64,000 nucleotides of DNA from Falseniella ignava CCUG 37419 (GTDB lineage: Bacteria > Bacillota > Bacilli > Lactobacillales > Aerococcaceae): assembly GCF_000301055.1 (NCBI RefSeq), contig NZ_JH932301.1, positions 661,979-725,978 on the forward strand, read 5' to 3'. The position numbers were made by a program, and so were the translations under genes. The notes under the pieces were generated by a model, which was given only the letters and a program-made list of their open reading frames with translations, was not told where the DNA came from and ran no database searches. Of this stretch, positions 13,652 to 58,511 are shown one piece after another. Numbering within the stretch: the stretch's first letter is position 1; each line of letters begins with the position of its first letter.

Positions 13652-14944
13652 TTAATCGAATACAGTTTGACCTGAAACAGGAGTTGTTAAAGCGTTAAGT
13701 GCTTTGTCAACTAATCTCTCACGTAGTTTGTATTCTTCCTCTTTATCCAATGCTGGATTTCCAAGTGGGTGAGGAATAGCAATTGTAGGAACGATACGGT
13801 TCGCTCCAACTGTTTGAGAGATTGGAACAACAGTACACATGTGAACCACAGGAATACCAGTTGCTTCGATACCTTTTACCATCGTTGCTCCGCAACGTGT
13901 ACAGGTCCCTCAAGTAGAGGTTAAGATAACAGCATCTACGCCATTTTCGTGAAGTTCTTTAGCGATATCTTCAGAGAATGCTTTTGCGTTTGCAACGGCA
14001 GTACCGTTACCAACAGTAGAGTAGAAGTAGTGGAATAATTCACCAATTTCACCGTTTTTCTCTTTGTTGCGTAAAACGTCAACAGGGATAACACGGTTCA
14101 TATCTTCGTTAGCTACAACAGGGTCGAAACCACCGTGAGCTGTTTCCCATTCACCTTCTACTAAGTCATCAACAACCGCAATGTCATAACGACCAAATTT
14201 AGATGCTGATGAAGATTCGATACGGTCTGGGTTACCATGTGGAACAGGTCCACCAGAAGATACAATCGCAATCTTAGCTTTAGTAATATCTTTAATTGCT
14301 GCTGCTGGTTCAACGTTGTCGAATTCAGGCATTGGGAATTCAGTTTCGAATTCTTCGCCTTTCATTTTCTTAATTAACATTTCAACCGCACGTTGTCCAC
14401 CAATCTTATCTGCATGGTAGTTTTTACGGTGACGAACGAAGTAACCGTCCTCTTCAGGATTTGGTTCCTCACCAGCGATTAATTTGTTAACAACTTTAGC
14501 GATAGCTGGAACAGCTTTACGCATTGCTGCTGCAGAGTTACCAGTTCCTACAATGTAAGGAACTTTCTTATACATTTCAACCCCAGGGTTTTCTTCGTAC
14601 ATACCTGTAACTGCAGGAATTTCTAAACGTTCCATCACTGCAGTTGCTACAGCACCTGCTGCAACCCCGTAACGACCCGCGTTAAATGCAGGACCTGCGA
14701 TTACTAAGTCAGGGTTGAATGATTTAATCATTTCGATAACTTCGTCGATTGCTTCTGGATGCTCGTTAAAGTATGAGTCACCACAAGCTACTGTACCAAC
14801 GATTTCAGCGTCTTCTAATACTTTACCAAACGCAAGACCAGGTCCGACAGGGCCATCTTCTTTGAATGGTTTTGTATCAGCTTTTTCTTCTCCACCAATA
14901 CCAGCGTAGAACTGGTTGATGTAATGTACAATACGTTTTGTCAT
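13652..14944 (-). CDS. grdB: Glycine reductase component B gamma subunit GrdB, selenoprotein
   Basis: The substrate-specific selenoprotein B of glycine reductase; its selenocysteine attacks the alpha carbon of the substrate bound to the GrdE pyruvoyl group. The gene must be read through TGA at 13910-13912 (codon 345), giving VDAVILTST-U-GTCTRCGATM; this fits the GrdB family Sec position. Without readthrough it would look like two ORFs, but frame and homology continue to the stop. Total about 430 residues, normal for GrdB. A 6-bp hairpin follows the UGA. It is last in grdX-grdE-grdB, 29 bp after grdE. Glycine rather than betaine or sarcosine specificity is inferred from the presence of grdA/C/D and not proven. 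Confidence 0.95.
13883..13897 (-). promoter_or_regulatory. Likely SECIS hairpin of grdB
   Basis: On the minus strand CGTTGC-GGA-GCAACG forms a perfect 6-bp stem whose first base is 12 nt past the UGA. Bacterial SECIS elements lie immediately downstream of the UGA and bind SelB through the apical loop. Confidence 0.7.
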
Positions 14945-17133: not shown

Positions 17134-18165
17134 ATGTCAGAATATAAAGAGCTTGTTGCTTGTGGTGGATGAAGTGCCAAATTAGGACCTGATAGTTTAT
17201 CAGGATTATTAGATCGCTTACCACGACAAGTGGACGAAAGGTTGATTGTTGGTTTTGACTCAGCGGATGATGCAGCTGTATTTAAAGTTTCAGATGATAT
17301 TGCCTTGATTCAAACATTGGACTTTTTCCCAACGATGGTTCCAGATCCTTATATTTTTGGGAAAGTTGCTGCAGCGAATGCTTTAAGTGACGTATACGCG
17401 ATGGGCGGCACTCCAATTACTGCGATGAATATCGTTGCTTTCCCTCAAGATGGGGATATGGAGATGCTCGCTGAAATTATGCGAGGTGGTGCGGAAGTTG
17501 TTGCGGATGCTAAATGTGTATTAGCAGGAGGTCATTCGATTAGTGATGCGACACCAAAATATGGATTATCTGTTACTGGTTTGGTGCATCCCGATAAAGT
17601 GATTATGAATAATTCGACCCAAGCAGGGGATGTTTTAATTACAACAAAACCACTCGGGAGTGGAATTGTAACGGGTGCTTACCGTAATGATAAAGCAAGT
17701 CACGAAGCTTATGAAGAAGCTATCAAATGGATGACTACCTTAAATCGTGATGCAGGGGAGGTAATGTTAGAATACCCTGTCTCAAGTGCAACGGACGTGA
17801 CAGGTTTTGGTCTATTAGGTCATTTGCACGAAATGATGCGTCCAGATATTACTGCGATCATTTACGCTGACCAATTACCATATATTGAAGAAGCATTTAC
17901 TCTCGGTGAACAGGGGATTGTAACAGGAGGCAGCAAACGAAACCGTAAGTTCTTAGCGAATGCGTTACGGTTTGATGATGTCGCAAAACCATACCAAGAA
18001 CTATTGCTTGATCCACAGACATCCGGTGGATTATTAATGAGTGTCCCTAAATCTTATGCAGATGAAGTAACAGCCGCTTTGAAATCTCGCGGTGTTCCTG
18101 CAGCGGTGATTGGGGAAGTCATTGAGCGAAAAGACATTGAGATGATTGTCAAACCATCAAAATAA
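17134..18165 (+). CDS. selD: Selenide, water dikinase SelD, itself a selenoprotein
   Basis: Makes selenophosphate from selenide and ATP, the selenium donor for Sec-tRNA. The ATG follows taggaggaatatt. Codon 13 is TGA (17170-17172), giving VACGG-U-SAKLGPD, exactly where SelD proteins have their catalytic Cys or Sec. Including it the product has 343 residues, the normal length; starting downstream at the GTG-type site would remove the active site. The nucleotide-binding core is seen in DDAAVFKV and TLDFFPTMVPDPYIFGKVAA. It heads selD / DUF3343 / selB / selA. Confidence 0.96.
17188..17204 (+). promoter_or_regulatory. Likely SECIS hairpin of selD
   Basis: CCTGATA-GTT-TATCAGG is a perfect 7-bp stem beginning 16 nt past the UGA with G-U in the apical loop, which matches the known bacterial SECIS layout. 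Confidence 0.8.
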
Positions 18166-18535: not shown

Positions 18536-20410
18536 ATGAAGCGGGTAGTAATTGGTACTGCAGGTCATATTGACCACGGAAAAAGTACGTTAATTAAGAC
18601 ACTTACTGGAATTCAGACTGACTCGACTAAAGAAGAACAACAACGTGGTCTGACCATTAACTTAGGATTTGCCCATCTTGATTTACCAAGTGGTGAAAGT
18701 GTAGGGATTGTCGATGTCCCCGGGCATGAGAAATTTATTAAAAATATGGTGGCGGGCGCCATTGGGATTGACTTAGTGTTGTTAGTGATTGATGCGCATG
18801 AGGGAATTATGGCACAGACACGTGAGCATGTGGCGATTATGACCTTATTAGGTATTAAAAATTATGTCATTGCTTTAACAAAAGTTGCGGATGTTGATCC
18901 AGAATTAAAAGATTTGGTCTATCTCGATATCCACGAACAATTTCAAGGAACTCCATTAGAGAATGCTCCAATCGTTGAAACCGACGCGATTGCAGGAATT
19001 GGTTTGGATGAATTGAAACAAGTATTAGATGAAGTTTCCCAATCTGTTCGTAGTGAAGCGTTAAGTTTACCAGCCCGTATGAACATTGACCGAGCATTTT
19101 CGGTTAAAGGATTTGGAACGGTTGTGACGGGAACTTTGATTGAAGGTCAAATCAAAGTGGGGGATGAATTATTCGTATATCCCGCGGGAATCAAAACAAA
19201 AGTACGCTCAATTCAAATTCATGAAGAGGAGCAACCTGTAGCGGAAGCAGGAAATCGAACTGCTTTAAACTTAACAAAAGTAACGCTAGATGACATCGGT
19301 CGAGGCAACGTTTTGAGTCAAAATGAATTAGAACCTACTTATATGTTAGATGTTAAATTACACTGCTTAGAACATGCACATCAACCGATTGAGCTATGGG
19401 ACCGCGTTCACTTACATATCGGAACGAGAGAAGTGTTAGCGCGAGTCGTTCCTTTAGGTCAAGAAATTATTATGCCAGGTTCAGATGGCTATGCACAATT
19501 AAGATTGGAAGAAGAAGTCGCCGTTAAACGGGACGACCACTTTATTATTCGTTCGTACTCGCCAGTTGACACCATTGGAGGAGGGATGGTCTTAGATACT
19601 CATCCGCAAAAACATAAGCGTTTCAATGAAGAAGTGATTGAAAGTCTGGAAATTAAAGAAGCGGGGGATTTGTCCGATATTATTTTAGACTTTATGAATC
19701 GTCGTACCTTTGCGACCATTAGCGCTAGCGAAATTGCGGATTACTTAAATGAAGAACCTGAACAAGTTGACGAAGCGCTGGACAAATTAGTTGCTCAAGA
19801 ACAGTTGACCCTTTTTGGCCACCGATATAATTCCACGGAACGGATTGAAGATTTAATTGGTACGATGATGCAGTTGCTTAAGGATTATCATGAAAAATAT
19901 CCTGTTCGTAATGGGATGCCTTTAGAAGAATTTCGTTCAAATTATAATAAGCTCGCACCGCGTGATTTAAGTGCGATTATGAAAGAGCTTGAAACACGAG
20001 GATTAATCGCTATAGAAGGAGAATTTATTCGTTCGGCTGATTTCGAACTTGAGTTAGACGAAGCGCAACAAGCGCTGAAAGATGCCATGCTCAATGAACT
20101 TAAAACAGCTCAATTACAACCTCCAACGTATGAGGAATTAGTTGGTAAGAGTGCTGAACGTAAAGAAATGTTGAATTCTTTATTAGATGAAGAAATTATT
20201 CAGTTAGACCGAATTACCTTTATTCACAAAGAAGTATATGAACAAGCGGTTGAAGCGGTCGTTCATCATATTCAGGAACATGGACAAATTACTTTAGCTG
20301 AGTTTAGAGATTTAATGGATACGAGCCGAAAATATTCGCTAATATTCCTAGATTATCTCGATGAACATGGCATTACCAAACGCATTGAAGATTACCGCGT
20401 GTTAGCTTAA
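18536..20410 (+). CDS. selB: Selenocysteine-specific elongation factor SelB
   Basis: Delivers Sec-tRNA to the ribosome at UGA codons marked by a SECIS hairpin. The 624-residue protein has an EF-Tu-like GTPase domain: GHIDHGKSTL (P-loop, about 9-18), DVPGHEKF (G3) and LTKVADVD in the G4 region. Domains II and III follow, then four C-terminal winged helices (about 370-624) that bind the SECIS RNA. The start used has ggaggg upstream; another ATG four bases earlier is out of frame. It lies between the DUF3343 gene and selA. Confidence 0.97.
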   Translation: MKRVVIGTAGHIDHGKSTLIKTLTGIQTDSTKEEQQRGLTINLGFAHLDLPSGESVGIVDVPGHEKFIKNMVAGAIGIDLVLLVIDAHEGIMAQTREHVAIMTLLGIKNYVIALTKVADVDPELKDLVYLDIHEQFQGTPLENAPIVETDAIAGIGLDELKQVLDEVSQSVRSEALSLPARMNIDRAFSVKGFGTVVTGTLIEGQIKVGDELFVYPAGIKTKVRSIQIHEEEQPVAEAGNRTALNLTKVTLDDIGRGNVLSQNELEPTYMLDVKLHCLEHAHQPIELWDRVHLHIGTREVLARVVPLGQEIIMPGSDGYAQLRLEEEVAVKRDDHFIIRSYSPVDTIGGGMVLDTHPQKHKRFNEEVIESLEIKEAGDLSDIILDFMNRRTFATISASEIADYLNEEPEQVDEALDKLVAQEQLTLFGHRYNSTERIEDLIGTMMQLLKDYHEKYPVRNGMPLEEFRSNYNKLAPRDLSAIMKELETRGLIAIEGEFIRSADFELELDEAQQALKDAMLNELKTAQLQPPTYEELVGKSAERKEMLNSLLDEEIIQLDRITFIHKEVYEQAVEAVVHHIQEHGQITLAEFRDLMDTSRKYSLIFLDYLDEHGITKRIEDYRVLA

Positions 20411-20423
20411 TAAGGAGAATAGA

Positions 20424-21809
20424 ATGAAAGACATACTTAGACAACTCCCTTCAGTCAATGATTTATTGAAGGTACAATCGGTTGATGAATTGATTGGTTT
20501 GTACTCCTACGACCGAGTTAAGGAGGCTTTACAGCAAGCAATTGATCAAGTGCGTCAATCTATTTTATCAGGTGATAAGGTAGACATTCACGATGCTGCA
20601 ATCATCGATGAAGCTTCGCAGCAATTAGAAACTTTGAAATCCTCTTCACTGAAAAGTGTTATCAATGCGACTGGAACCGTCTTACATACGAATCTAGGGA
20701 GAGCATTATTATCCGAAGGTGCGATTGATGCGATGGTTCAAGTTGCAAGAGGCTATAATAATTTAGAGTACTCGATTGAATCAGGCAGTCGTGGGACTCG
20801 ATATGAGCATATCGAGCAAATTATTACAGAACTGACCGGAGCAGAATCAGCTCTATTAGTGAATAATAATGCTGCCGCTGTTATGTTAATGTTAACGACC
20901 TTTACTAAAGGTAAAGAAGTATTAATTTCGCGTGGCGAATTGGTTGAAATTGGAGGATCGTTCCGTGTTCCAGAAGTAATCTCGAGCGGGGGTGCGATTT
21001 TACATGAAGTGGGTTCCACTAATAAGACGCATTTGAAAGATTATCAAACGGGAATTAATGAAGAGACGGGTGCAATTTTACGAGTTCATACAAGTAACTA
21101 CCGTGTGATTGGTTTCACAGAGACGGTTACAGACCGTGAACTGGTTGAATTAGCACATTCTCATGATTTACCAGCATTTAATGATTTAGGTAGTGGATTG
21201 CTTATTGACTTGCAACATTTGGGCTTATCATATGAACCCACCGTTAAAGAAATGATTGATGCGGGTTATGATTTAGTCTCTTTCAGCGGCGATAAGCTCC
21301 TCGGAGGACCTCAAGCTGGAATTATTGCAGGTAAAAAATCTTATATTGATCAATTGAAAAAGGCGCCGCTACTGCGAGCGCTCCGTTCTGATAAAGTGAC
21401 GATTGCCGCCTTGGAGGCAACTTTACGCGCTTATCTCAATCCTTCAGAAGCCATTAAACAGATTCCTACATTACAGATGCTGGGCTATTCAATGGATGAA
21501 TTAAATGAACGTGCACAATCGCTATCTCAAAAACTATCAGAAATTGATGGTATTGAAGCGAAAATTGTAGATGGCTTCTCTCAAGTGGGTGGGGGATCTT
21601 ACCCAGGTGAGTATTTACCAACGAAGCTAGTTAACGTAACTACGCAAAAAATTGATGAAGCTACCTTTGAACGTGAGCTGCGTTTATCAGCTCATCATAT
21701 TATTCCGCGAATTCATGATGGTAAGATTCAGTTTGATGTTCGTACCATTTCGTTAGCAGACTTTGATACCATCGTGGAAGAGGTACGCGTTATTCTTACC
21801 GAATATTAA
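20424..21809 (+). CDS. selA: L-seryl-tRNA(Sec) selenium transferase SelA
   Basis: A PLP enzyme that converts seryl-tRNA-Sec to selenocysteinyl-tRNA-Sec with selenophosphate. The 461-residue protein has the typical N-terminal domain (PSVNDLLK), the NATGTVLHTNLGRALLSE segment and the PLP-lysine motif SFSGDKLLGGPQAG (about 288-301). It follows selB by 13 bp with aaggag before the ATG. Sec synthesis in this window is complete: selA, selB, selD and selC are all present. Confidence 0.97.
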   Translation: MKDILRQLPSVNDLLKVQSVDELIGLYSYDRVKEALQQAIDQVRQSILSGDKVDIHDAAIIDEASQQLETLKSSSLKSVINATGTVLHTNLGRALLSEGAIDAMVQVARGYNNLEYSIESGSRGTRYEHIEQIITELTGAESALLVNNNAAAVMLMLTTFTKGKEVLISRGELVEIGGSFRVPEVISSGGAILHEVGSTNKTHLKDYQTGINEETGAILRVHTSNYRVIGFTETVTDRELVELAHSHDLPAFNDLGSGLLIDLQHLGLSYEPTVKEMIDAGYDLVSFSGDKLLGGPQAGIIAGKKSYIDQLKKAPLLRALRSDKVTIAALEATLRAYLNPSEAIKQIPTLQMLGYSMDELNERAQSLSQKLSEIDGIEAKIVDGFSQVGGGSYPGEYLPTKLVNVTTQKIDEATFERELRLSAHHIIPRIHDGKIQFDVRTISLADFDTIVEEVRVILTEY

Positions 21810-21969: not shown

Positions 21970-22425
21970 ATGTCACTTGAAAACAAAAAAGTGCTTGTAA
22001 TTGGTGACCGTGATGGTATCCCAGGACAAGCTATTGAAGAATGTCTTAAGGGCACTTCTGCTGAAGTAATTTTCTCTTCTACAGAGTGTTTCGTTTGAAC
22101 GGCCGCGGGAGCCATGGATTTGGAAAATCAACGCCGTGTTAAAGAAGCAGCTGAAGAATTTGGTGCTGAGAACGTAGCAGTCGTCATCGGTGGTGGCGAA
22201 GCTGAATCAGCAGGACTTGCAGCAGAAACTGTTACATCTGGAGACCCAACATACGCAGGTCCACTTACAAACGTAGCATTAAACTTAGCGTTTGTTCACC
22301 CATTAGAGCCTGAGTTCAAAGAATTTGTTGATCCTGAAGTTTACGATGAACAAATCGGAATGATGGAAATGGTATTAGATGTTGATTCAATTATTGAAGA
22401 AATGGAATCAATCCGTAACGCGTAA
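21970..22425 (+). CDS. grdA: Glycine reductase protein A GrdA, selenoprotein
   Basis: Selenoprotein A carries the carboxymethyl group from component B to component C and is re-reduced by thioredoxin. The ATG follows ataggaggaaatatt. Codon 43 is TGA (22096-22098), giving [18 protein letters not shown], the established GrdA active site with a nearby Cys40. With Sec the product has 151 residues, the usual size. Downstream pairing is possible around the GC-rich cggccgcgggagcc, which may be its SECIS. It has its own promoter and terminator and stands apart from grdE-grdB and grdC-grdD. Confidence 0.96.
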
Positions 22426-50370: not shown

Positions 50371-50589
50371 TTATGATAAATCATGAATTGCTGAAAATTT
50401 GATATCTTCCATCATTTGATGTAGCTGTGACACACTATGTCTACGAGTACGCCAGGCATAGCCACAACCCGATGAAATTTCTCTTGGAACAGATACCAAT
50501 TTACCAGATAATCCACGTTCTTTAGCTATTTTATCATATTCTATTGCTTCATATAAGTCCTCAAACGATACATATACATTTAATCTCAT
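50371..50589 (-). CDS. Second DUF3343 protein
   Basis: A 72-residue protein with the DUF3343 core REISSGCGYAWRTRRHSVSQ. It shares the Ser-x-Cys-Gly core with the copy between selD and selB (SASCGLALLV) but differs in the flank. It begins 15 bp after yedE. The single Cys in a glycine-rich turn is the obvious candidate for binding reduced selenium or sulfur; this is inferred. An aaggag-like ribosome-binding site precedes the ATG. Confidence 0.82.
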   Translation of the reverse strand: MRLNVYVSFEDLYEAIEYDKIAKERGLSGKLVSVPREISSGCGYAWRTRRHSVSQLHQMMEDIKFSAIHDLS

Positions 50590-50604: not shown

Positions 50605-51714
50605 TTACGCTTCAGCAACAATATCTGCGCGTTTATTAACGACATAATAGGCTAAAGCGAATAAAAATACAATCGATCCAATGACAAAAATTTGACCGTT
50701 CAATCCCGGACCTCCAGAGACTGCAGCTGCTTCAGCCGTTGCAGCCACCGATGGGGCGCTGGCTAAGCTAAAGTTATGGGCTAATGCAGCACCAAAAACC
50801 ATCCCCATAAAGGTCATAATTGCATTACCATGTCCTGATCCAGCTAAGACAACTTGGCGCACTGGACATCCACCAAATAACACACCAGCAAAACCGACAG
50901 CAAACATCGATAATACATTCCATAGATGTTGGTTATGGGCAATCGGTCCGAAAGCTACAATATTAAAGTCACCTGTCATAATATTATAAATTAGCATCAC
51001 AACAAACAATCCGATAATCGGTGTAATCAGTGTGAAGTCTCGGATTAAAATAATATCACGAACAGACCCTACGAAACATAAGCGAGTTGCAAATGCGATG
51101 GCTCCAAATACTAACCCTACAATTAAAGCAATGATAGGTGTAGCGTGGAAGCTACCTGGTCCTGCTTCTGACCAATTAAAGAGCTGAGGTGTAACCCATG
51201 ATAACAATAAGAAAAGAACCGAAATCATTGGGATAACCCATATATTAATCTGTGCAGGTGCGACATTAGCTTGCCCTAAGGTGAACCCTTTTTTAATAAA
51301 ATGCACACCGACAAAAACGCCTAGAACAAATCCAACTAGTCCAACAATAGCACTTAGGTCACCGCTCGCTAATCTAAGAACCATTCGCAATGTACAACCT
51401 AAAAAGACGAGGGAATTGACCATTAAAATAATTCCACCTAAAAATCTTAAACCAGGAGCGCTAGCCGCTCGAGCTTTGGTCCCAGTTGCTAAGCCTAGAG
51501 CTAGGGCACCTACTAGAATCCCAACAATTTCCGGTCTAAAATACATCGTTCCAGCACTTTGATGCATATTTAAGGCACCAACTTGATCACGAATAAAGCA
51601 AGCAGTACAAAGTGCCATATTTTTAGGATTCCCTAAGTATGCGAGCCAAATTAAGCCTAATCCCAATAAAATCCCAAGAAATAAAGCTTTACTTTTTGAT
51701 ATTTTTATTTCCAT
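50605..51714 (-). CDS. yedE: YedE-type selenium-metabolism membrane protein
   Basis: A 369-residue YeeE/YedE-family membrane protein with about ten hydrophobic segments. It shows the paired Cys motifs of the family: ALCTACFIRDQ near residue 35 and GGCPVRQVVLAGSGHG near 282. Related transporters move thiosulfate; the YedE branch occurs with selenium genes and may import a selenium compound. First gene of a three-gene unit with a DUF3343 gene and an unknown gene. Promoter on the minus strand: TTGATT, 17 bp, TATCAT near 51755-51783. Confidence 0.88.
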   Translation of the reverse strand: MEIKISKSKALFLGILLGLGLIWLAYLGNPKNMALCTACFIRDQVGALNMHQSAGTMYFRPEIVGILVGALALGLATGTKARAASAPGLRFLGGIILMVNSLVFLGCTLRMVLRLASGDLSAIVGLVGFVLGVFVGVHFIKKGFTLGQANVAPAQINIWVIPMISVLFLLLSWVTPQLFNWSEAGPGSFHATPIIALIVGLVFGAIAFATRLCFVGSVRDIILIRDFTLITPIIGLFVVMLIYNIMTGDFNIVAFGPIAHNQHLWNVLSMFAVGFAGVLFGGCPVRQVVLAGSGHGNAIMTFMGMVFGAALAHNFSLASAPSVAATAEAAAVSGGPGLNGQIFVIGSIVFLFALAYYVVNKRADIVAEA

Positions 51715-52746: not shown

Positions 52747-53091
52747 ATGTCATATATTGTTGTATTAACGAGTGATGAAATGGGTCATAATAACCAAAGT
52801 AGTGAAATCGGTGCAAAATTAATGAATGCTTTCTTACATAAATTAACAGAACAACCAGAAATGCCAACGCATGTTTTATTATATAACTCAGCAGTATGGT
52901 TGAATAAACCTGATGCTCCAACTGTAGAGGATTTAAAAATTTTAGCCGATAAAGGTGTTAAGTTATTAACATGCGGTACTTGTATGAACTATTTTGAACA
53001 AGACCAAGAACAACTGCCAGTGGGTGAAGTTGGAAATATGGGGCAATTTATTGAAATTATGCGTGAAGCAGAAAGAATCGTTCAACCTTAA
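52747..53091 (+). CDS. DsrE-like protein related to the YedF C-terminal domain
   Basis: A 114-residue protein with a DsrE/DsrF-like fold: MSYIVVLTSDEMGHNN, a HVLLYNSAVWL strand and the redox-looking LLTCGTCMNYFEQDQ with a CxxC. It resembles the C-terminal part of YedF, the sulfurtransferase-like selenium-metabolism protein, but the usual N-terminal TusA domain is missing. The ATG follows ttaaggaggataaaa. It stands behind the long structured leader and ends at a shared terminator. Role in selenium trafficking is inferred from family and neighbours (yedE, two DUF3343 proteins). Confidence 0.82.
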   Translation: MSYIVVLTSDEMGHNNQSSEIGAKLMNAFLHKLTEQPEMPTHVLLYNSAVWLNKPDAPTVEDLKILADKGVKLLTCGTCMNYFEQDQEQLPVGEVGNMGQFIEIMREAERIVQP

Positions 53092-53148: not shown

Positions 53149-54342
53149 TTAACAATATTTATGGCGTAGTTTTTCTTGGGCTTCGACCATGGCTTCCATT
53201 TTGCGTTCAACAATTTGCATTGGATTCATTGGACGATTTTGGAACGTTGCAAATCCACAGTCAGGGTTCAACCAAATTCGTTGTGGGTCATCAATATATT
53301 TCATGGCCTGTTCTACAGAACCTATAATCTCATCTGCTGTTTCGATATGATCAATTCTTGGGTTGACGACACCAACGCCAAGGGCAACTTTATCTTTAAG
53401 TTGTGGGTTTTTGAATAGGGCATCAACTGAACCTGCACGAGGTGTTGACATCTCTAATGTTAGCATATCTGCATCAATTGAAGCAAAAAAGTCTGATAAC
53501 TTCTCATAGTTACCTTCGAGAAGGGATGATTCTTGACGGGTAAAGTTACCACGACAGACATGCAATTGGCTCACGACATTTGCATTTTTCATATCACTTA
53601 AGACTGGTTCAATTAAGTCATAAGCGAATTCTAGTTCTTTGCTCTCCAGAGCTCTCTCAGATAAGACACCTCAGTAAAAGGAACGCGCTGCGTCATTACT
53701 TGCAAAGCATACTTCTGCTAGAATTGGCTCATCTAATTGAATGACTTCAACACCAAAGTCAATTAAGCGTTGGATTTCATTACGAACAAGTTGTAAAATA
53801 TCTTTAGCCAAATCACGTCGTCCGCTATAATATTTTCCAGACAATTCTTTCACCCATAAGTTGCGGACTAGGAGGTATGGGCTAGGAACTGTTGCCTTCA
53901 ATGGTTTTTTAGTCATTTCACGCAGTTCCTTCATCTCTGGAAGAACAAATTCTGCGTTAACATCTAATTTACCAGTAGCGGCAGGACTGTTCATAGAATG
54001 GTCATCTGCATCACGCTCCGCTAAGCTCTCAGCAAAATCTTCTTGATGCTCTCCAGTCGTAATTTGTGTTAATTCCTCCGTACTGAACATGGATACGCCT
54101 GGGACATTTTGCGCAACAAATGAGATAAAGTTATCGCGGTGGTATTCACCTCCGGTAATCACATCGATGCCTACTTTTTCTTGCAACTGAACTACTTTCA
54201 TCGTTTCGTCATGAATAACTTGATTGTATTGACGCTGATCAATGCGACCTGACTTCAAGTCATCCTGTGCTTGGAATACTTCTTGAGTTCGTGGCATTGA
54301 TCCCATCAAATTCGTTGTAAACGGCTTAAAATCTTTTAACAT
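53149..54342 (-). CDS. MetE-like methyltransferase, probable selenoprotein
   Basis: A 397-residue cobalamin-independent methionine synthase family (MetE C-terminal type) protein, read through TGA at 53671-53673 (codon 224): AARSFY-U-GVLSERALES. Everything after the UGA is conserved-looking and in frame, including the zinc ligands QLHVCRGN (His261, Cys263), LTLEMSTPRAG (Glu297) and NPDCGFATF (Cys362); the N-terminal part has LIQLDEP-like VIQLDEPIL. A 5-bp hairpin GCTCT / AGAGC lies 18 nt past the UGA. With selC, selA, selB and selD nearby, selenocysteine is more likely than a nonsense mutation. The methyl donor and acceptor are unknown; the N-terminal MetE repeat is absent. The promoter overlaps a large palindrome. 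Confidence 0.85.
53641..53652 (-). promoter_or_regulatory. Candidate SECIS hairpin of the MetE-like gene
   Basis: On the minus strand GCTCTGGAGAGC folds as GCTC-tgga-GAGC (or 5 bp with a GG turn), starting 18 nt after the UGA, close to the spacing in selD. Short, so moderate support. Confidence 0.5.
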
Positions 54343-54687: not shown

Positions 54688-55080
54688 ATGATTTATCGCA
54701 TTAGTGAGTTTGCAGATAAATGTGGAGTTAATAAAGAAACGATTAGATATTACGAGAGAAAAAATTTATTACAAGAACCTCACCGAACGGAAGCTGGTTA
54801 TCGGATATATTCATATGATGACGTTAAGCGTGTTGGGTTTATTAAACGAATACAGGAACTTGGTTTTTCTTTAAGCGAGATTTATAAAATACTTGGTGTT
54901 GTAGATAAAGATGAAGTTTGTTGTCAAGACATGTTCGAATTTGTTTCTAAAAAACAAAAGGAAGTGCAAAAACAAATAGAGGATTTAAAACGAATTGAAA
55001 CTATGTTAGACGACTTAAAACAACGATGTCCAGATGAAAAGCAATTACATTCGTGTCCAATAATAGAAACATTAACATGA
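54688..55080 (+). CDS. merR: Mercury-responsive regulator MerR
   Basis: A 130-residue MerR-family activator: N-terminal winged helix YRISEFADKCGVNKETIRYYERK, a long dimerisation coil (about 85-118), and three cysteines typical of Hg sensors (CCQDMF near 79-80, RCPDE near 114, SCPI near 123). The ATG follows atggggtgaaataag. It lies 20 bp downstream of its own operator and is followed by merA in the same orientation, so it is autoregulated. It is part of the ISL3-bounded element. Confidence 0.93.
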   Translation: MIYRISEFADKCGVNKETIRYYERKNLLQEPHRTEAGYRIYSYDDVKRVGFIKRIQELGFSLSEIYKILGVVDKDEVCCQDMFEFVSKKQKEVQKQIEDLKRIETMLDDLKQRCPDEKQLHSCPIIETLT

Positions 55081-55104
55081 GACATTAACGAAAGGGGATT
55101 TTTT

Positions 55105-56745
55105 ATGAATAAATTTAAGGTAAATATTCAAGGAATGACTTGTACGGGTTGTGAAAAACACGTAGAATCAGCACTTGAAAAGATAGGTGCTAAAAATATT
55201 GAGTCTAATTTTCGTCGTGGTGAAGCAGTATTTGAACTGCCCGATGATATTGAGGTTGAAAGTGCAATAAAGGCGATTGATGAAGCAAATTACCAAGCCA
55301 GAGAAATTGAAGAAGTATCAACACTAGAAAACGTGGCGTTAATTAATGAAGACGATTATGACCTTCTTATTATTGGTTCTGGTGCTGCTGCCTTTTCTTC
55401 GGCAATTAAAGCTATAGAATACGGTGCAAAAGTTGGAATGATTGAGCGTGGAACGGTTGGGGGAACCTGTGTGAATATTGGCTGTGTTCCGTCAAAAACT
55501 CTTCTTAGGGCAGGGGAAATCAATCATTTATCAAAAGACAATCCGTTTAAAGGTTTACAAACATCCGCTGGAGAAGTGGATTTAGCTAGTTTAATCACGC
55601 AAAAGGATAAATTGGTGAGCGAACTTCGGAATCAAAAATATGTGGATTTAATTGATGAATATAATTTTGATTTAATTAAAGGTGAAGCAAAATTCGTTGA
55701 TGCTAGTACGGTTGAGGTCAATGGGGCAAAGTTATCTGCAAAACGCTTTTTAATTGCAACAGGTGCATCGCCTTCGTTGCCCCAAATTTCAGGACTTGAA
55801 AAAATGGACTATTTAACTAGTACAACACTTCTTGAGTTAAAGAAAATACCAAAACGATTAACTGTAATTGGCTCAGGATACATTGGAATGGAGCTTGGAC
55901 AACTATTTCATCATTTAGGTTCAGAAATAACGCTTATGCAAAGAAGTGAGCGACTTTTAAAGGAGTATGATCCTGAGATTTCAGAGTCAGTTGAAAAAGC
56001 GTTAATTGAACAGGGTATAAACCTTGTCAAAGGGGCAACTTTTGAGCGTGTTGAACAAAGTGGAGAGATAAAAAAAGTTTACATAACAGTAAATGGCAGT
56101 AAAGAAGTCATTGAATCAGATCAGTTACTTGTTGCCACTGGAAGAAAACCAAATACGGATTCTTTAAATTTAAGTGCAGCAGGTGTTGAAACTGGAAAAA
56201 ATAATGAAATCCTGATCAATGATTTTGGTCAAACAAGTAATGAAAAGATTTATGCAGCAGGAGATGTGACGTTAGGACCGCAATTTGTATATGTAGCAGC
56301 CTATGAAGGTGGAATTATTACTGATAATGCTATCGGTGGATTAAACAAAAAAATAGATTTATCGGTAGTTCCTGCTGTTACGTTTACGAATCCGACGGTT
56401 GCAACGGTTGGTTTAACAGAAGAACAAGCAAAAGAGAAAGGGTATGATGTGAAGACATCTGTATTACCTTTAGATGCTGTTCCAAGAGCAATTGTAAACC
56501 GTGAAACAACCGGTGTATTTAAACTAGTAGCAGATGCAGAAACACTAAAAGTATTAGGGGTTCACATTATATCTGAGAATGCAGGAGATGTCATCTATGC
56601 AGCATCATTAGCTGTTAAATTTGGCTTAACGATAGAAGATTTAACAGAAACCCTAGCACCATATTTAACAATGGCTGAAGGGCTAAAATTAGCTGCACTT
56701 ACGTTCGATAAAGATGTTTCGAAATTATCTTGTTGTGCAGGCTAA
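55105..56745 (+). CDS. merA: Mercuric reductase MerA
   Basis: Reduces Hg(II) to volatile Hg(0) with NADPH in the cytosol. The 546-residue flavoprotein has an N-terminal heavy-metal domain (about 1-70; [15 protein letters not shown]), FAD-binding [14 protein letters not shown], the redox-active [19 protein letters not shown], an NADPH-binding [14 protein letters not shown] and the C-terminal Hg-relaying cysteine pair LSCCAG. It follows merR by 24 bp with aaagggg. No transporter gene merT/merP and no merB are seen, so uptake must rely on other systems. Cargo of the ISL3 element. Confidence 0.96.
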
Positions 56746-56977
56746 GGGAACTTTTTTTACAACTCCCTATTCAAGTGAACCAGCTAATACTGTACTAAAG
56801 GTGTGCAGTAGTTTAGCAAAGTCTACAAAAGATTTCATACACTATTTTGCGATCACCCATTATATAAATGCTTTAAGGGATTTTCTAAGTGCATTTGTGG
56901 TCACAAAAATAATTTAACACTGATGATTTCGACATCAAATCTATAATTGATACCTTAACACCGCAGAGTAATAAAGG

Positions 56978-58312
56978 ATGAACAATATGTCAGACTTATT
57001 ATCCCTACCAGACATTAAAACAATAGAACCACCGCAAGAAAATGAAACCGATATGATGTTTAAAGTTGAAGCAGTCGGACCACCTGAACGTTGTCCTGAA
57101 TGTGGTTTTGACAAGTTGTACAAACACAGTTCAAGAAATCAACTAATTATGGATTTGCCCATTCGTTTAAAGCGAGTGGGCTTACAATTGAACCGTAGAC
57201 GATACAAGTGTCGTGAATGCGGATCTACCTTCTGGGAACGCCTAATATCTGTAGATGAAAAGCGTAGTATGACCAAAAGGCTTTTAAAGTCCATTCAAGA
57301 GCAATCCATGTCTAAGACCTTTGTAGAAGTCGCAGAAAGCGTTGGTGTTGACGAGAAAACTATTAGGAACGTTTTTAAGGACTATGTGACACTCAAAGAA
57401 CGTGAATACCAGTTTGAAACTCCTAAGTGGCTTGGGATAGACGAGATACATATTATCCATAGACCTCGGCTTGTATTGACTAATATTGAACGCAGGACTA
57501 TTTATGACATCAAGCCAAACCGTGACAAGGAAACAGTCATCCAACGTCTTTCAGAAATCAGTGACAGGACTTATATTGAGTACGTCACAATGGATATGTG
57601 GAAGCCTTACAAAGACGCAGTGAACACTATCCTTCCACACGCTAAAGTTGTCGTAGATAAGTTTCATGTAGTTAGAATGGCTAATCAAGCCTTAGATAAC
57701 GTCAGAAAGTCTTTGAAAGCCCATATGAGCCAAAAAGAAAGACGTACCCTTATGCGTGAAAGGTTTATCCTTCTAAAGCGTAAACACGATCTAAATGAAC
57801 GTGAATCATTCCTCTTAGATACTTGGTTAGGTAATCTTCCTGCTTTAAAAGAAGCCTATGAACTCAAAGAAGAGTTTTACTGGATATGGGATACTCCTGA
57901 TCCAGATGAAGGTCGTCTTCGTTATAGTCAATGGAGACACCGTTGTATGTCCAGTAACTCTAAAGACGCATATAAAGACCTCGTGAGAGCCGTAGACAAC
58001 TGGCATGTCGAAATATTCAACTACTTTGATAAAAAAAGGCTCACTAACGCTTATACGGAGTCAATTAACAGCATTATTAGGCAGGTAGAGCGAATGGGTA
58101 GAGGTTACTCGTTTGATGCCTTACGAGCCAAAATCCTTTTCAATGAGAAGCTCCATAAAAAGCGTAAGCCACGATTTAATTCAAGTGCTTTCAATAAAGC
58201 TATGTTATACGATACTTTCAATTGGTATGAAGTGAATGATCACGACATTACAGACAACTTTGGTGTCGATTTTTCCACACTTATTAAGAATTTGGAGAAG
58301 GGTGATTTATAA
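56978..58312 (+). CDS. ISL3-family transposase
   Basis: A 444-residue DDE transposase with the N-terminal zinc finger CPECGFDKLYKHSS plus CRECGSTFWE (about 38-85), a helix-turn-helix (VAESVGVDEKTIRNVF) and the ISL3 catalytic core: LGIDEIHI, VTMDMWKPYKD and the late TNAYTESINSIIRQVERMGRGYSF. The frame is intact. It is the last gene of the mer element, 30 bp before the right inverted repeat. The 232 bp between merA and this gene hold only short open frames and no recognised feature. Confidence 0.94.
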   Translation: MNNMSDLLSLPDIKTIEPPQENETDMMFKVEAVGPPERCPECGFDKLYKHSSRNQLIMDLPIRLKRVGLQLNRRRYKCRECGSTFWERLISVDEKRSMTKRLLKSIQEQSMSKTFVEVAESVGVDEKTIRNVFKDYVTLKEREYQFETPKWLGIDEIHIIHRPRLVLTNIERRTIYDIKPNRDKETVIQRLSEISDRTYIEYVTMDMWKPYKDAVNTILPHAKVVVDKFHVVRMANQALDNVRKSLKAHMSQKERRTLMRERFILLKRKHDLNERESFLLDTWLGNLPALKEAYELKEEFYWIWDTPDPDEGRLRYSQWRHRCMSSNSKDAYKDLVRAVDNWHVEIFNYFDKKRLTNAYTESINSIIRQVERMGRGYSFDALRAKILFNEKLHKKRKPRFNSSAFNKAMLYDTFNWYEVNDHDITDNFGVDFSTLIKNLEKGDL

Positions 58313-58414: not shown

Positions 58415-58511
58415 GGGAGCGGATGGGTTCTGGTGTGCCCTCTGGTCTTCAAAACCAGTATGAGGGGTTAAGAGCTTCTCGGGTGAGTTCGATTCTCACA
58501 CGTTCCCGCCA
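58415..58511 (+). tRNA. selC: tRNA-Sec (anticodon UCA)
   Basis: The 97-nt molecule has the anticodon stem-loop CTGGT-CTTCAAA-ACCAG with anticodon TCA, a long variable arm, a T-arm GTGAG-TTCGATT-CTCAC, discriminator G and encoded CCA. The acceptor pairs GGGAGCG with CGTTCCC; the eighth pair expected in bacterial tRNA-Sec would be G-A here. Together with selA, selB and selD it completes the selenocysteine insertion machinery. A terminator follows. Confidence 0.95.

Follow-up and report, generated by a model that had tools for sequence, protein, structure and literature searches.

Sequence comparisons strongly support the reading that a seemingly stop-broken MetE-like gene of Falseniella ignava CCUG 37419 (positions 53149-54342, minus strand) encodes a full-length selenoprotein. 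The gene lies in the window, by which we mean the whole 64,000-nucleotide stretch of DNA that was analysed. Its product is almost certainly a single-domain, zinc-dependent TIM-barrel enzyme with selenocysteine (Sec) at residue 224 in a loop of the catalytic face, and represents, in its Sec form, a MetE-like family active in selenium metabolism. The explanation as a whole is in our view highly probable, the specific reaction proposed below less likely than not.

The gene runs from 54342 to 53149, on a strand that the original prediction had left unstated, and, as originally predicted, forms a single frame of 397 codons interrupted by one TGA, at codon 224 (53671-53673, minus strand) in the context RSFY-U-GVLSER; no other stop and no frameshift is present. 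The claim that the zinc-ligand motifs all lie past the TGA also holds. By analogy with MetE, the putative ligands are His261 and Cys263 of the HVCRGN motif (53554-53562), Glu297 (53452-53454) and Cys362 of the NPDCGF motif (53257-53259), all on the minus strand and invariant, the HVCRGN pair in both alignments.

The genes for Sec insertion had been placed in this window, and they are there: SelD (17134-18165), SelB, the Sec-specific elongation factor (18536-20410), and SelA (20424-21809), the latter two recognized by eye from their translations, together with tRNA-Sec (selC, 58415-58511), about 4.1 kb from the MetE-like gene; all four are on the plus strand. The MetE-like gene was correctly called the fourth selenoprotein gene of the window, in which SelD (UGA at 17170), GrdA (21970-22425, plus strand, UGA at 22096) and GrdB (13652-14944, minus strand, UGA at 13912) are likewise read through a UGA. 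Because selA, selB, selD and tRNA-Sec are found in the window along with three other UGA genes, the genome is equipped to decode Sec, and we infer that Sec is inserted at codon 224 in the cell. Between the MetE-like gene and selC (54688-58312) lie genes for a MerR regulator, a mercuric-reductase-like flavoprotein with an HMA domain and a transposase-like gene.

Homologues were compared at the level of the family and wider; the host genus is represented by no other genome. A single-protein query against genome contigs gave no match. An alignment query retrieved at least 569 relatives, and the comparison used the best 80, which come from named organisms. At the column of codon 224, the 82 aligned homologues, which include these best 80 of at least 569, have either Cys (64 sequences) or TGA (18 sequences) without exception; Trp and Arg never occur there, and a second stop is found in 0 of the 82. 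The original prediction had named an FMCGALSE-like motif in related proteins, and such a motif is real: Cys forms read FMC-A/G-x-L-S/T, and FMC-A-x-LSEK stands at the site in the paralogue of the same genome (FMCASLSEK) and in others.

The UGA is common to other Sec-decoding genomes, as 17 further genes from other species carry it at the same aligned codon. The reading as a MetE-family selenoprotein withstood all the sequence checks that had originally been suggested. Four other genomes of the same family have a homologue of 47-51% identity with exactly one TGA at the same place (FY-U-G-x-L-S/G), and the carriers as a whole include Aerococcus, Facklamia, Atopobacter, Vagococcus, Companilactobacillus, Bombilactobacillus, Gemella, Parvimonas and a Tissierellia. 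Identity to the window's protein is 40-48% before the TGA and 48-56% after it, which indicates that protein-level selection acts fully on the part beyond the TGA. Since 17 genes of other species share the aligned TGA and conservation persists beyond it, the TGA is more than a chance occurrence.

The tRNA-Sec gene showed a matching distribution. It scored above the Rfam cut-off in 11 of 76 genomes of the family, and the eight genomes with any member of the MetE-like family are all among these 11 (p about 9e-9 if genomes are assumed independent, which related genomes are not). It was also present in 13 of 13 other TGA-form genomes, so that 18 of 18 in total exceed the cut-off. Many of these genomes contain both a Cys and a Sec copy. 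In a quick tree, the TGA forms make up one group with a support of 100, inside which falls the Cys gene of Aedoeadaptatus pacaensis; this distribution amounts to two changes and is consistent with a single acquisition of Sec followed by a single reversion to Cys, a direction that we infer. A broken homologue with stops and frameshifts was also seen in one related genome that bears tRNA-Sec (G013:C12:324811-325970, locus L010).

A bSECIS-type hairpin, GCUC-[UGGA]-GAGC, occupies 53641-53652 (minus strand), and its stem starts exactly 18 nt downstream of the UGA, where a hairpin had been predicted. When the window stretch was folded alone, the hairpin was absent from the minimum-free-energy fold (z = +1.0, no better than shuffles); the lone sequence therefore proves nothing, and the proof is carried by comparison across genes. 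Similarly, random synonymous codons for the window peptide gave the stem in 10% of draws and the stem with the loop G in 4%, which makes the hairpin of the window modest evidence when taken singly. In a comparison aligned by codon of 17 distinct TGA genes and 63 Cys genes, a four-pair stem 18 nt after the UGA with the loop NGNN was found in 17/17 TGA genes versus 0/63 Cys genes, and G at the second place of the loop in 17/17 versus 1/63. All cells were paired (100%), versus 7-47% in slid-partner controls.

In the window copy, three of the four pairs are changed on both sides (U-A to C-G, C-G to U-A and A-U to C-G), and the residues encoded across the changed pairs go from KVKVD to RALES. The hairpin sequence is the same in the majority of TGA genes, and the independent covariation therefore comes mostly from the window's own lineage; the short stem of 4 bp is a further point against the element. 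In the Cys (TGC) gene of A. pacaensis that lies inside the Sec clade (L043), the hairpin has decayed. The SelD, GrdA and GrdB hairpins of the same window share the geometry, with loops of the GGA or GU type that start 19-24 nt after the UGA. An Rfam search found a SECIS after the UGA of GrdB (SECIS_4) and none after that of the MetE-like gene; this miss says little, since the Rfam SECIS models omit some bacterial forms.

The protein matches PF01717, the MetE catalytic domain, with 104.9 bits against a Pfam gathering cut-off of 21. Its predicted structure (mean pLDDT 86, pTM 0.89) superimposes on MetE structures with Z about 36 and an rmsd of 2.3-2.6 over 334 residues. The roles of the zinc ligands and homocysteine-site residues are known from MetE (PMC7857596), and the homocysteine-site residues S15, E66 and D204 align with those of Thermotoga maritima MetE and are invariant. 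In the predicted model, Sec224 lies inside a low-confidence loop (213-231) between two strands, the barrel strand that terminates with D204 and the one that supplies H261 and C263. TIM-barrel loops of that kind face the catalytic side. By this general layout, the modelled loop, presumably a mobile one, would belong to the catalytic face. The original proposal placed Sec close to the zinc as a nucleophilic or redox residue in selenium or thiol chemistry, which fits this predicted anatomy and the selenium-linked neighbours.

Several known systems resemble the MetE-like selenoprotein in part. It shares with the C-terminal catalytic domain of MetE (PF01717; T. maritima 1xpg/1xdj) the TIM barrel, the His/Cys/Glu/Cys zinc ligands and the Ser/Glu/Asp homocysteine residues, but it differs from MetE in its identity of about 22% and in an insertion, a presumably mobile loop in which Cys or Sec is invariant. 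A folate-dependent methionine synthase was considered and rejected: the 397 residues form a single catalytic domain without the N-terminal folate domain of MetE, and the genome has no MTHFR. The core methionine synthases MesA, MesB, MesC and MesD likewise have a single catalytic domain with the same zinc and homocysteine residues, and one of the best matches to the fold is a MesD structure (3rpd); however, the link to SelD and other selenium genes and the Cys/Sec loop set the MetE-like selenoprotein apart from MesA-D. The best NCBIfam methionine synthase model gave 144.2 bits against a cut-off of 406 and the others also stayed below theirs, although these models do not represent MesA-D one by one. 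The single-domain MetE proteins YxjG/YxjH (PRK06233/PRK06520; 1ypx) have the HxCRGN and CGF motifs in common with it, whereas the segment of Cys/Sec224 is absent or different in the aligned members, at 24-31% identity. With the known prokaryotic selenoproteins it shares the UGA, Cys homologues, the SECIS hairpin and the Sec machinery.

The surroundings of the gene point to selenium. Convergent with it lies a gene for a YedF-like protein (52747-53091, plus strand) that scores 108.2 bits against 110 for TIGR03527 and consists of the DsrE half alone, without the SirA/TusA half. A single-DsrE gene of this YedF-like type adjoins the TGA form at 16 of 18 loci and is the sole conserved neighbour of the Sec forms; at 15 loci it stands on the same strand, 30-492 bp upstream, and in the window it is convergent. 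The same short DsrE-only form thus accompanies the Sec-MetE gene at 15 other loci. Nearby are also the putative selenium transporter YedE (50605-51714, minus strand; TIGR04112, 374.6 bits against a cut-off of 200) and a Se/S carrier-like protein (50371-50589, minus strand; PF11823, formerly DUF3343). A TDE2712 family protein (NF051430; 49814-50347) adjoins the genes of these two.

Two loci differ. The Vagococcus locus (L034, 3818-9004) has, in place of the YedF-like gene, a triple rhodanese and a betaine-type (OsmF/OpuC-type) ABC importer, a set that it has in common with the Cys-bearing sister in Aedoeadaptatus (L043, 3682-8974). With such an importer and a triple rhodanese as neighbours of the MetE gene, the substrate may be an onium-type selenium compound. 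In Aerococcus HMSC062A02, neither the YedF-like gene nor the rhodanese/importer set was found within the stretch read.

The Cys forms have operon partners of their own, namely acyl-CoA-dehydrogenase-like (53 loci), phosphonate-binding-like (54 loci) and OsmC-like genes (58 loci, some of them TusA-fused). The genome of F. ignava has a complete Cys operon besides the Sec gene. This four-gene operon (Rv1679-type, Rv1680-type, Cys MetE-like and OsmC-like; L123:5889-9586) recurs at 53-58 other loci, and a literature search on Rv1679/Rv1680 found no paper. The Cys form adjoins selD/selA/selB in Siminovitchia and lies inside a glycine reductase cluster in some others. SelD is present in 45 of 46 Cys-form genomes from many phyla, and the exception is a metagenome assembly. 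With SelD at its side across many phyla, the four-gene Cys operon looks like an undescribed selenium-linked operon. Given the neighbours of both Cys and Sec forms and the 45 of 46 Cys-form genomes with SelD, the MetE-like family as a whole tracks selenium use. Elsewhere in the F. ignava genome (L124:6507-10743), which is without MTHFR, there are genes for a corrinoid protein, a reductive-activator-like protein and an MtaA/UroD-like methyltransferase.

These observations bear on what the enzyme may do. The conserved zinc and homocysteine sites suggest that a methyl group is passed either to a zinc-bound thiolate or away from it, and the constant company of selenium genes suggests a selenium-containing donor or product; methyl-THF is disfavoured as the donor in this genome because it has no MTHFR and no full MetH and the protein has no folate domain. 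Substrate and direction of the reaction are proposed from these features. Our best guess, and a tentative one, is that the enzyme demethylates a methylated selenium compound and thereby frees selenium for SelD. A zinc-bound homocysteine-type thiolate would take the methyl group from the methylated selenium compound, Sec/Cys224 would hold the selenium during the transfer, and a carrier of the DsrE/TusA/rhodanese type, for example YedF, would receive the freed (per)selenide and deliver it to SelD. This methylated-selenium idea draws on gene context and the chemistry of MetE by analogy and is possible rather than probable; it offers no obvious explanation for the four-gene Cys operon with its acyl-CoA-dehydrogenase-like, binding-protein-like and OsmC-like members.

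Other functions would also suit a part of the evidence. The same selenoprotein could be a folate-independent methionine synthase like MesA-D, in which Sec or Cys is a redox or methyl-relay residue and the tie to selenium reflects merely the availability of Sec. The zinc and homocysteine-binding residues are all kept, and the genome has neither MTHFR nor a full MetH, yet has a corrinoid methyltransferase cluster as a possible source of methyl groups. However, a role in methionine supply leaves SelD in 45 of 46 Cys-form genomes of many phyla unexplained, the methionine synthase model scores lie far under the cut-off, and the genome has two copies, one of them in the four-gene operon; we consider this function unlikely. 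Similarly improbable is a reuse of the MetE fold as a Se/S transferase that carries a perselenide or persulfide on Sec/Cys224 and performs no methyl chemistry. Neighbours of the DsrE, TusA, OsmC and rhodanese types would suit such a transferase, but a simple carrier has no need of the full zinc and homocysteine site that is invariant throughout the family.

The reaction might instead run in the reverse direction, with excess selenide or selenol being methylated for detoxification and loss and the Sec residue coupling synthesis of the enzyme to selenium sufficiency. Many genomes do hold a Cys and a Sec copy, synthesis of the Sec enzyme requires the presence of selenium, and YedE has been proposed as a selenium exporter (PMC5322559). 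Nevertheless, no partner gene for synthesis of a methyl donor is conserved nearby and the site retains its residues for binding homocysteine in the role of methyl acceptor, which makes methylation of selenium a rather remote prospect. A true stop, an error of sequencing or the decay of a pseudogene is a scarcely credible account of the TGA and practically refuted: gene callers would terminate the frame there, the stretch after it folds no better than shuffles and one relative (G013) has a truly broken copy, but the TGA recurs in 17 genes of other species that have no further lesion, the column is otherwise Cys, the hairpin is conserved and conservation continues past the TGA. Reading of the UGA as another amino acid such as Trp, through suppression or an altered code, has a negligible probability, as we found nothing in its support and the column holds Cys only besides TGA, every TGA-form genome has tRNA-Sec and the hairpin is present.

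The preferred reading, a Sec-form MetE-like zinc enzyme, was set against published inventories. The 2026 inventory lists 119 prokaryotic selenoprotein families and subfamilies, among them other methyltransferases such as arsenite methyltransferase (PMC13188914, Table 1), and includes the families of Haft and Tolstoy 2025. A MetE/PF01717 entry is absent from this table, and "MetE", "homocysteine" and "methionine synthase" are absent from the text of the inventory paper; MetE and methionine synthase also go unmentioned in the other sources consulted. Our search of the freely accessible literature found nothing relevant on a selenoprotein of the MetE type or on a selenium gene resembling MetE. 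Within this coverage, a MetE-family selenoprotein is unreported.

Taken together, we identified an undescribed branch of the methionine synthase family that is almost confined to selenium-using bacteria, and this near-confinement indicates a step of selenium metabolism that is as yet unknown. Known selenoproteins are mostly redox enzymes. Sec in a zinc methyltransferase fold, beside a zinc-thiolate site, would, if true, be a departure from them. Many genomes probably annotate the MetE-like selenoprotein as two fragments. It is conceivable, though somewhat doubtful, that the family marks a new selenium-supply pathway of many phyla, in which zinc methyltransferases with Sec or Cys would demethylate selenium compounds and YedF/TusA/OsmC-like carriers would hand the selenium to SelD. 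The form of selenium that SelD uses in vivo and the system that delivers it are still incompletely known (PMC13188914), and the MetE-like family, together with its operon, offers tangible candidates for the selenium supply of SelD that can be put to the test.
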